Below, piece after piece: positions 3,340 through 5,423 of a stretch of DNA of 64,000 nucleotides (its first letter is position 1; each line of letters opens with the position of its first letter). The notes under the pieces are model-generated. The model saw only the letters and a list, made by a program, of their open reading frames with translations. It was not told the origin of the DNA and searched no databases. Made by a program: the position numbers and the translations under genes. The stretch comes from Methanolobus tindarius DSM 2278 (GTDB taxonomy: Archaea > Halobacteriota > Methanosarcinia > Methanosarcinales > Methanosarcinaceae): the NCBI RefSeq assembly GCF_000504205.1, contig NZ_AZAJ01000001.1:2268879-2332878 (forward strand), in the 5' to 3' direction.

Positions 3340-3398
3340 GGGATCGCCGAAATGATTTTGATAGAATGGGAGTTATGGGAATTATTGCTCTAATATGA

Positions 3399-3470
3399 CG
3401 AACCTGCCGGGACTCGAACCCGGGTTCTAAGCTCCGGAGGCTTAAGTGATATCCGCTACACTACAGGTCC
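3399..3470 (-). tRNA. tRNA-Arg (CCG)
   Basis: Minus-strand cloverleaf: acceptor GGACCTG pairs with CAGGTTC (one G-U), D-arm GTG/CAC, anticodon stem TAAGC/GCTTA with loop CTCCGGA giving anticodon CCG, T-loop TTCGAGT in a GGG/CCC-containing stem, discriminator G. No CCA is encoded. Confidence 0.93.
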
Positions 3471-3639
3471 GCATTTGCTTATAATTTTGAACTTAAACTC
3501 ATTTTGCATGTTTCTCATTGGAGATAAATATGCTGTTGATGTGGAATTATTGTTAATTTGTTACTGCTGTTTAATGTATGATATATGCTGATTTGTTTTA
3601 GATTTTCACATAAATATAGATTATTAGTCAATATACGAA

Positions 3640-3690
3640 CGTTATTTTTAAATATCACAATTGTGTATTAGGTATCATCACAATTGTGAT
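3640..3690 (+). promoter_or_regulatory. Promoter with two CACAATTGTG operators upstream of thiS
   Basis: A TATA-like stretch (TTATTTTTAAATA, about 3641-3653) is followed at once by the palindrome CACAATTGTG (3656-3665) and then by the longer perfect palindrome ATCACAATTGTGAT (3677-3690). The two centres are 23 bp apart, about two helical turns, so dimers could bind on one face of the DNA. The expected transcription start, about 25 bp after the TATA box, lies inside this block, which suits repression. The same palindrome sits in front of the HTH gene at 4485-4496. Confidence 0.65.
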
Positions 3691-3826
3691 TTGGCTAAAA
3701 TAGCCAATAACCAGGGCATTGGCACGGCAAAACATTCTCCTGTAAAGTAATGCCGTCCGGTTCGAATCCGGATCCTGGCTTGAGGTTTAACCTCAAATCC
3801 CTAGCAGGAGTCTTCCGGCTCCTGCA
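3691..3826 (+). ncRNA. Structured, tRNA-like leader RNA upstream of thiS
   Basis: Bases 3710-3780 have tRNA-like length and order: acceptor ACCAGGG pairs with TCCTGGC (five Watson-Crick pairs, one G-U, one A-C mismatch), followed on the 3' side by a perfect T-arm (TCCGG, loop TTCGAAT, CCGGA) and one unpaired base. The loop CTGTAAA would give anticodon GTA at 3742-3744, but its stem and the D-stem do not pair. Instead CGGCA (3725-3729) pairs with TGCCG (3751-3755). Two competing 5' hairpins exist: TTGGCTA/TAGCCAA (3691-3697 with 3701-3707) and GCCAAT/ATTGGC (3703-3708 with 3718-3723). Two further stems follow, TTGAGG/CCTCAA (3780-3796) and GCAGGAG/CTCCTGC. This may be a cis-regulatory leader, a degenerate tRNA, or both. 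Confidence 0.5.
3804..3825 (+). terminator. Strong hairpin before thiS
   Basis: GCAGGAG (3804-3810) pairs perfectly with CTCCTGC (3819-3825) around the loop TCTTCCGG and is followed by AGAAAAA. It could stop transcription of the leader RNA or act as the last stem of a regulatory leader; thiS begins 70 bases further on, after the T-rich tract TTTATTTTATTTTTTTC. Confidence 0.45.
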
Positions 3827-3895
3827 GAAAAACGTTTACTTCAAAAACCCTGCGACAATACCCCTTTATTTTATTTTTTTCAAGAAGGTAAAAAC

Positions 3896-4090
3896 ATGAA
3901 CGTAATACTTCCAAACGGTGATATCCAGGAACTGGCCATGGGTCCCTTGACAGTAGTGGAATTACTGCAACATCTGGGCATAAGCCTGGGTGAAGTTCTG
4001 GTATCTAAAAATAAATGTATTATCCCGGAAGACAGCATTCTCGAAAATGGAGATAATGTACGAATAATGCAGGTTATTTTTGGAGGCTGA
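3896..4090 (+). CDS. thiS: ThiS/MoaD-type small sulfur-carrier protein
   Basis: 64 residues with a beta-grasp (ubiquitin-like) pattern and the diagnostic C-terminal diglycine (MQVIFGG). The glycine carboxylate is adenylated by a ThiF/MoeB-type enzyme and converted to a thiocarboxylate that donates sulfur. The sequence MNVILPNGDIQELAMGPLTVVELLQHLGI is ThiS-like in the first strands and helix, but assignment to thiazole, molybdopterin or tRNA-thiolation chemistry cannot be made from sequence; archaea usually make thiazole by the Thi4 route, so another sulfur acceptor is quite possible. An E1-like partner lies 600 bases downstream. SD-like GAAGGT precedes the ATG. Confidence 0.8.
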   Translation: MNVILPNGDIQELAMGPLTVVELLQHLGISLGEVLVSKNKCIIPEDSILENGDNVRIMQVIFGG

Positions 4091-4132: not shown

Positions 4133-4453
4133 TTAATTGTCATTAGCACATTCCTGACCTTCTTCCCTAAGTTGCCTGCATATTCCGCATATTCTTGAAG
4201 CAAGGTCATCAACCTTGTTTGCTTTCATATCTTCAGCAAGTTCACGTATAGATACCTTCACATTCTCTTCAAGCACAATCCTGTAGCCTCTCTTTTTGGA
4301 CAGGTATTGTGAAACAGCAGATGGTGCCATATCAAGTTCCTTGGCAATTTCCTGTTGCGACAGTCCGCAATTCATAAGTTCTTCTGCGATGGCTGCTCTG
4401 ATGGCAGGCAACACGTCCCAGACGATCATCTGACATGGTAATTTCATAGGCAT
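4133..4453 (-). CDS. Small HTH regulator with C-terminal cysteines
   Basis: 106 residues. The helix-turn-helix is clear at about residues 30-55 (LSQQEIAKELDMAPSAVSQYL), of the XRE-like type seen in archaeal COG2522 regulators. The C-terminal part has CGICRQLREEGQEC, three cysteines that could bind metal or an Fe-S cluster or act as a redox switch; another Cys is near residue 7 and one near 29. Its own promoter carries the palindrome TCACAATTGTGA just after a TATA-like box, and the same palindrome occurs twice at the thiS promoter. It is therefore likely an autoregulator that also controls thiS. It lacks the ThiN ligand domain of the described archaeal ThiR regulators. Confidence 0.75.
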   Translation of the reverse strand: MPMKLPCQMIVWDVLPAIRAAIAEELMNCGLSQQEIAKELDMAPSAVSQYLSKKRGYRIVLEENVKVSIRELAEDMKANKVDDLASRICGICRQLREEGQECANDN

Positions 4454-4484: not shown

Positions 4485-4525
4485 TCACAATTGTGAATAT
4501 GTTTTTTATATTTAATATCTTTTAT
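4485..4525 (-). promoter_or_regulatory. Promoter and CACAATTGTG operator of the HTH gene
   Basis: Read on the minus strand: a TATA-like element (TTAAATATAAAAAAC, about 4507-4521), then the perfect palindrome TCACAATTGTGA (4485-4496), then the ATG at 4453. The predicted transcription start falls on the palindrome, the same architecture as at 3640-3690. This supports negative autoregulation by the encoded HTH protein. Confidence 0.6.
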
Positions 4526-4700: not shown

Positions 4701-5423
4701 ATGTTAAGCGATGATGAACTCGAAAGATACAGCAGGCAGATTATGCTTTTTGGCAAGGAAGGTCAGAAGCGCTTGAGTGATGCTACTGTATTTGTGGCAG
4801 GTGCCGGTGGACTTGGCTGTCCGGTTGCGTTGTATCTTGCAGTTGCGGGAATAGGCCATTTGAAAGTTGCAGATAAGGATCTTGTGGAACAAACGAATCT
4901 TAACCGTCAGGTTCTGCACTGGGAACAGGACATTGGCAAAGAGAAAGTCATTTCTATAGAGGAAAAAATCCTGCAGATAAATCCTCACGTAGAAATTCAG
5001 ACATTTCACCTGACAATTGACGAAACAAATATCATGGACCTTGTGGCTGATGCAGATATAATTGTTGATGCCATGGATAATTATGAGGTCCGCTATTTTC
5101 TGAATAAGGTTGCCCATGAGAAAGGAATTCCCATGGTTCATGGCGCAATTCGTGGTTTTGATGGTCAGGCAATGACGATCATCCCTGGAAAAAGTGCATG
5201 TTTTAATTGTGTATTCCCATCTGAACCGCCATCGGAGATATTTCCTGTGATTGGCACGACCCCTGGTATAATTGCCATGATACAGGCTAATGAAGTCATT
5301 AAATACCTGCTTGGGACCGGTAAGCTTCTGACAAACCGCCTGCTAATATGGGATGGTCTTAATTCTGAAATGGATTATATGAAAGTGTCAAAAAGACCGG
5401 ATTGTAAAATATGCGGTAAATAA
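4701..5423 (+). CDS. ThiF/MoeB/HesA-type adenylyltransferase (E1-like)
   Basis: 240 residues. The Rossmann nucleotide-binding motif is GAGGLGCPVALYLAVAGIG at about 34-52, followed by the conserved DLVEQTNLNRQ segment and DAMDNYEVRYFLN, all hallmarks of the E1/ThiF superfamily. Two CxxC pairs (CFNC near 172 and CKIC at the C-terminus) fit the structural zinc site. Such enzymes adenylate the C-terminal glycine of ThiS/MoaD-type proteins, and the diglycine protein at 3896-4090 is the obvious partner. A TATA-like TTATATTAT about 75 bases upstream suggests its own promoter, without the CACAATTGTG operator. Confidence 0.85.
   Translation: MLSDDELERYSRQIMLFGKEGQKRLSDATVFVAGAGGLGCPVALYLAVAGIGHLKVADKDLVEQTNLNRQVLHWEQDIGKEKVISIEEKILQINPHVEIQTFHLTIDETNIMDLVADADIIVDAMDNYEVRYFLNKVAHEKGIPMVHGAIRGFDGQAMTIIPGKSACFNCVFPSEPPSEIFPVIGTTPGIIAMIQANEVIKYLLGTGKLLTNRLLIWDGLNSEMDYMKVSKRPDCKICGK

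Follow-up and report, generated by a model that had tools for sequence, protein, structure and literature searches.

The leader of thiS, a sulfur-carrier gene of Methanolobus tindarius DSM 2278, contains what comparison with its congeners identifies as a degenerate tRNA-Cys. In sister species a tRNA-Cys still opens a regulated tRNA-Cys-thiS stretch, as this one probably once did, and the remnant leader is perhaps used. The window analysed here is a 64,000 nt stretch of NZ_AZAJ01000001.1 (2,268,879-2,332,878, forward strand; the window genome is G000), and positions below are counted within it. For comparison 60 related genomes were searched, and the genus is represented by 27 Methanolobus species.

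The thiS leader and its locus

A TATA-like box, TTTTTAAATA (3645-3654, plus strand), appears to be the promoter of the leader and thiS, with transcription predicted to start near 3678-3682. Two operators accompany it: operator 1, TCACAATTGTGT (3655-3666), which is kept in most leaders across the genus, and operator 2, the perfect palindrome TCACAATTGTGA (3678-3689). Only two perfect copies of the latter occur in the 3.15 Mb genome, one before the leader and one before the regulator gene (operator 3, 4485-4496), so that the arrangement looks like a local regulon. thiS itself (3896-4090, plus strand) encodes a 64 aa ThiS/MoaD-type sulfur carrier ending in GG (Pfam ThiS above cut-off), and is followed on the minus strand by an HTH regulator with C-terminal Cys residues (4133-4453; HTH_24 and HTH_3 above cut-off), a probable repressor judging from the operator at its own promoter. 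A thiF/moeB-type activating enzyme (4701-5423, plus strand; Pfam ThiF E = 8e-75) lies beyond, and is found in the same locus of congeners. In most congeners the locus can be recognised by its synteny with a tRNA-Arg(CCG) gene, found in the window at 3397-3471 (minus strand). Apart from one weak bacterial match, a search of contigs with ThiS returned just two loci, both of M. vulcani.

The leader RNA, all of whose elements lie on the plus strand, begins with the 5' hairpin P1, TTGGCTA-AAA-TAGCCAA (3691-3707; strands 3691-3697 and 3701-3707). An alternative hairpin P2, GCCAAT..ATTGGC (3703-3723; strands 3703-3708 and 3718-3723), contains CCAGG in its loop (3711-3715) and shares 3703-3707 with P1, so that the two are mutually exclusive, as the first-pass annotation of this DNA had described. 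Synteny and sequence match place the decayed tRNA-Cys body, from the acceptor 5' strand to the discriminator base, at 3710-3780. Its perfect T-arm, TCCGG-TTCGAAT-CCGGA (3756-3772), is invariant at 13 of 15 sites in six species; its acceptor helix, formed by ACCAGGG (3710-3716) and TCCTGGC (3773-3779), makes six of seven pairs, the first being A-C. Both arms are thus where that annotation had placed them. Between them a central stem P4, ACGGC/GCCGT (3724-3756), runs from the former D-loop to the variable loop in the RNAalifold consensus of six species, in which the acceptor helix closes P4 and the T-arm. Next come the two further stems that had been noted downstream, hairpin H1, TTGAGGTTTAACCTCAA (3780-3796), and hairpin H2, GCAGGAGTC-TTCC-GGCTCCTGC (3804-3825), then a motif AGAAAAACG (3826-3834) that is near-invariant genus-wide, and finally a U-rich tract upstream of thiS (3865-3880), a possible archaeal terminator with a similar counterpart in most leaders that have H1 and H2.

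Folding of 3691-3836 gives -54.1 kcal/mol (z = -4.7), a stability equalled by none of 200 shuffles; z falls to -2.8 for 3691-3779, from which H1 and H2 are excluded, and much of the fold stability is thus supplied by these hairpins. For this shorter part the z-scores of the other clade members tested lie between +0.1 and -1.8. In the leaders of G002, G004, G009, G015, G017 and G024 the sequence GAAAAACG(T) stands just 3' of operator 2, before the tRNA, and returns as AAAAACGT after H2, like a direct repeat bracketing the tRNA-H1-H2 block.

Orthology to tRNA-Cys and its coupling to SepCysS2

At the syntenic site, between the CACAATTGTG operators and thiS, seven of the 27 species have an intact tRNA-Cys(GCA) (G004, G009, G012, G015, G019, G021, G026). 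Eleven have a decayed copy (G000, G001, G005, G007, G022, G025, G010, G017, G024, G002, G020), and the leader tRNA is absent from G003, G006, G008, G011, G013, G016 and G023. Synteny and BLAST establish the orthology of the window leader to the intact gene, the remnant matching bases 48-72 of the genome's own tRNA-Cys. Neither ARAGORN nor Infernal/Rfam calls a tRNA at 3691-3826, where the acceptor has six of seven pairs and a single central stem replaces the D and anticodon arms; the earlier view that valid D and anticodon stems are missing is thereby borne out. Its argument that the element should not be a degenerate tRNA did not survive the seven intact orthologs. By hand alignment, five of the six closest copies have GTA where the anticodon was GCA, and the anticodon of G025 differs from the other clade members. 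An att-site tRNA fragment of an integrated element, considered because only the 3' half is tRNA-like, is ruled out by the intact full-length tRNA-Cys in the same synteny. The anticodon loop, read by hand, suggested a tRNA-Arg(CCT), which the tRNA-Cys match excludes.

On an EF-2 tree the intact and decayed states interleave, from which, if no regain is assumed, we count at least five decay events. The leader tRNA-Cys is an extra copy in complete genomes; the window genome has three further tRNA-Cys genes, which adjoin what resembles 5S rRNA.

Integrity of the leader tRNA is coupled to a second gene for SepCysS, the Sep-tRNA:Cys-tRNA synthase. It is intact in all six loci with SepCysS2 versus one (G015) of 19 without it (Fisher p = 4e-5, uncorrected for phylogeny). 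G015, with an intact tRNA and no SepCysS2 in the locus, is thus the exception, and in G002 fragments of SepCysS2 remain beside thiS and the tRNA is mostly deleted. The fullest locus, that of G004, G009 and G012, starts with operators-tRNA-Cys-thiS, continues on the other strand with fdhD, a cysteine desulfurase and the HTH regulator, and ends with operators-SepCysS2-thiF-moaE; fdhD, desulfurase and moaE are our own names from the sequence, given without a family search. G019, G021 and G026 have the same gene set up to thiF, with an insertion in the fdhD of G019; the stretches read showed no moaE. These six species thus combine SepCysS with an intact tRNA-Cys and sulfur genes. The link of the leader to tRNA and sulfur chemistry that had been suggested from the window alone is a real one. 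The window locus retains only thiS, the regulator and thiF; SepCysS2, fdhD, csdA and moaE are gone.

Several other arrangements were seen in the genus. In G005 (C1:2499000-2509000) an operator-SepCysS2-thiF-moaE module with fdhD and desulfurase, possibly acquired again, lies far from thiS, whose leader is decayed. A second cluster, in G006 (C6:283500-293500; L181:744-7121), follows the architecture of the thiS locus: each of four tRNA-Cys genes immediately precedes a protein gene on its own strand, one for SepCysS2 and the other three for B12-binding_2 proteins of ~124 aa that have Cys or Cys-Cys at their end. Three of the four tRNAs come directly after a CACAATTGTG-like site, and inside the cluster lie a gene for a tRNA-Thr-editing domain and one for a paralog of the HTH regulator. 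In G006 and G023 (L183:2044-2467, L184:2074-2498) a tRNA-Cys without operator lies ~100 bases before what we read from the sequence as a TusA-like carrier gene, a third kind of sulfur gene behind tRNA-Cys. In G008 (L182:2338-2409) one without operator directly precedes a non-sulfur gene, a DEAD-box helicase-like frame. G001 (C1:3254500-3274400) has kept the operators, leader, H1, H2 and U-tract and lost thiS, and its leader and regulator are ~13 kb apart, as after an inversion broken just past the U-tract.

Conservation of the remnant and its alternative stems

Mean pairwise identity among five clade members is 0.65 upstream of the promoter and 0.67 at thiS third codon positions. Against this background the old D and anticodon arms drift freely (0.70), as does the stretch after H2 (0.69) apart from the motif that directly follows the hairpin, which is at 1.0 over 3828-3835. 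The promoter/operator stretch (3640-3691) stands at 0.89, the T-arm at 0.90, the acceptor 3' strand at 0.88, H1 at 0.94 and H2 at 0.92. Among six species the acceptor strands and T-arm have 24 invariant sites out of 27, the central region 12 out of 34 (p = 2e-5). The tRNA body as a whole thus does not evolve without constraint as a pseudogene would, its acceptor and T-arm being more conserved than its centre. All eleven decayed leaders keep at least five of seven acceptor pairs, and acceptor positions 1, 2, 5 or 7 are altered on both sides in different species; the first pair is broken in all six clade members. A simulation of neutral decay finds such retention only modestly unlikely per lineage. 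The genus as a whole has no need of the minihelix, since G024 and G002 have lost the T-stem.

Hairpins H1 and H2 are strongly conserved as well. Within the clade H1 is invariant at 16 of its 17 sites, and it is paired in most of 16 species. H2 covaries genus-wide: over 16 species 141 of 144 cells are paired, a value that only 0.0002 of arm-swap shuffles reach, and in four pairs both sides have changed. The picture first drawn from the window, of a structured and conserved tRNA-like leader behind two operators and before a sulfur-carrier gene, is upheld by these results. Its expectation that the stems would be conserved in homologous leaders holds for the acceptor and T-arm, for H1, for H2 and largely for P2, and fails for P1. 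P2 is kept in five of six aligned clade members; across six species 14 of the 19 sites of CCAAT..ATTGG do not vary. P1 (TTGGC/GCCAA) has six to seven pairs in four of seven clade members, while G005 and G025 have four each and in G001 the stem is broken. The 5' strand of P1 evolves at the background rate. Among six species both sides of two P4 pairs have changed, which is not significant alone, and covariation within the clade (six species) is not clearly above shuffles, there being too few changes. The proposed P1/P2 switch was rejected for want of conservation in the outer 5' stem; switching between alternative stems is possible.

A riboswitch-like RNA had also been proposed, and was not supported. 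The leader matches no Rfam family, which disposes of a known riboswitch or other known RNA family. Searched with a covariance model of H1-H2, 16 of 27 genomes yield a single site each, always at this locus, which speaks against a new dispersed riboswitch class; structure conserved before several genes of one pathway, as in riboswitches, was not found. A role as decoy or tRNA mimic, which the same annotation had raised, is conceivable.

Proposed explanation and its alternatives

In species with the intact gene, the HTH repressor would bind the operators at the TATA box and start site, and its release would yield a single RNA of tRNA-Cys, H1, H2 and thiS, cotranscription being suggested by the gene layout. 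Cleavage of this tRNA-mRNA dicistron by RNase P and tRNase Z would separate the tRNA from the mRNA; both enzymes cut artificial tRNA-like elements in Haloferax (PMC4946936). The released tRNA-Cys would give SepRS and SepCysS2 an additional scaffold on which to make cysteine, and the thiS mRNA left after cleavage would have its 5' end at H1. Upon loss of SepCysS2 the tRNA would be without use and decay. In the window leader, where as in t-elements an acceptor and T-arm minihelix adjoins an mRNA, the minihelix may still signal RNase P/tRNase Z cleavage, and H1 and H2 may act on the stability, termination or translation of the thiS mRNA, perhaps as a protector of its 5' end. The linked genes suggest a programme of cysteine made on tRNA-Cys together with Mo/W-cofactor sulfur. 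That the remnant is still used has partial evidence in its favor. Counting against the explanation are the two T-stem losses, the first acceptor pair broken throughout the clade, the modest improbability of acceptor retention under neutral decay, and the cases of G015 (tRNA kept, no SepCysS2) and G005 (SepCysS2 elsewhere, leader decayed). We would put forward tentatively, as an idea that may well prove wrong, that a tRNA-Cys is here in transition to a cis-acting leader, a tRNA-like 5' UTR (acceptor, new central stem, T-arm, H1, H2) kept in one clade to control the maturation or expression of the sulfur-carrier mRNA.

The recurrence of decay in at least five lineages, some without the T-stem or most of the tRNA, the modest P values for acceptor retention and the three other tRNA-Cys genes of the window genome would also fit a tRNA part that is a functionless pseudogene here, with only the operators, H1, H2 and the thiS start of importance. 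We regard this as somewhat unlikely, since the excess of invariant sites in the acceptor and T-arm over the D/anticodon region and the identity profile argue against it. A less probable and altogether doubtful case is that of a re-used cis-regulatory RNA, in which the P1/P2/P4 junction would switch thiS, e.g. via a tRNA-handling protein or a small molecule; the lack of conservation of P1, clade covariation not clearly above shuffles, the lack of an Rfam family and the single site per genome all weigh against it, although P2 with its CCAGG loop is conserved in five of six species, two P4 pairs have changed on both sides, H1 and H2 are conserved as leader hairpins, and G001, from which thiS is gone, has both P1 and P2 broken.

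The same genome bears on a quite improbable reading, that operators, leader and U-tract make up the gene of a stand-alone small RNA and thiS is transcribed by read-through only. Its retention of operators, leader, H1, H2 and U-tract despite the loss of thiS is as this would predict, and most H1-H2 leaders have a U-rich tract before thiS; however, G001 is a single genome whose thiS loss may be recent, and clade identity of the U-tract is only 0.72. It is very improbable indeed that the element is a functional if unusual tRNA with anticodon GUA missed by automatic callers. The T-loop is intact and a CTGTAAA-like loop is common to most clade members, but ARAGORN and Infernal make no call in the clade leaders, the first acceptor pair is broken in all six, the D and anticodon stems are not conserved and the anticodon of G025 differs. 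The reading that we prefer, and consider fairly likely, is a decayed tRNA-Cys that once headed a regulated tRNA-Cys-thiS stretch.

This arrangement recalls several known systems. T-boxes are bacterial and bind tRNA in trans. Like T-box and riboswitch leaders, the present element is structured, lies 5' of a metabolic gene and has a tRNA link; unlike them it has a tRNA remnant in cis, no Rfam family and one occurrence per genome. The mascRNA/MEN-beta RNAs are tRNA-like, non-decoding, and excised from a longer transcript. There is no homology to these (RF01684), the Rfam match falling only over the neighbouring tRNA-Arg and not the leader. With t-elements, found in plant mitochondria and made artificially in Haloferax (PMC4946936), the leader shares a tRNA-like acceptor/T-arm fold adjoining an mRNA; however, it is natural, archaeal and derived from a dated tRNA gene, and its cleavage is a prediction. 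Plants also have dicistronic transcripts that join a tRNA and a protein gene (PMC8166872), from which the archaeal case differs in its putative local repressor, its recurrent tRNA decay and a cotranscription that is likewise predicted. Similar in gene content are the clusters with clade VII SepCysS reported by Mukai et al. 2017 (PMC5424206). These clusters likewise place tRNA-Cys beside SepCysS and sulfur genes, and G006 and G019 also have the tRNA-Thr-editing-domain gene; in the present locus, however, tRNA-Cys follows operators of an HTH regulator and precedes the gene of a ThiS/MoaD-type carrier, and in many species it has decayed alongside the loss of SepCysS2, which the window locus lacks. 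No description of the thiS leader, its operators or the decay series was found in the literature searched.

An apparently regulated tRNA-Cys gene is thus tied directly to a ThiS/MoaD-type carrier and a second SepCysS, which suggests that tRNA-Cys may be made on demand in these methanogens as a scaffold for cysteine synthesis. ThiS, ThiF, the cysteine desulfurase, FdhD and MoaE become candidate sulfur-supply partners of the tRNA-dependent cysteine pathway, and the putative repressor, operators and hairpins offer simple experimental handles. The genus provides a natural series from intact tRNA to decayed leader in several lineages, in which one may ask which parts of a tRNA are retained by an mRNA leader.
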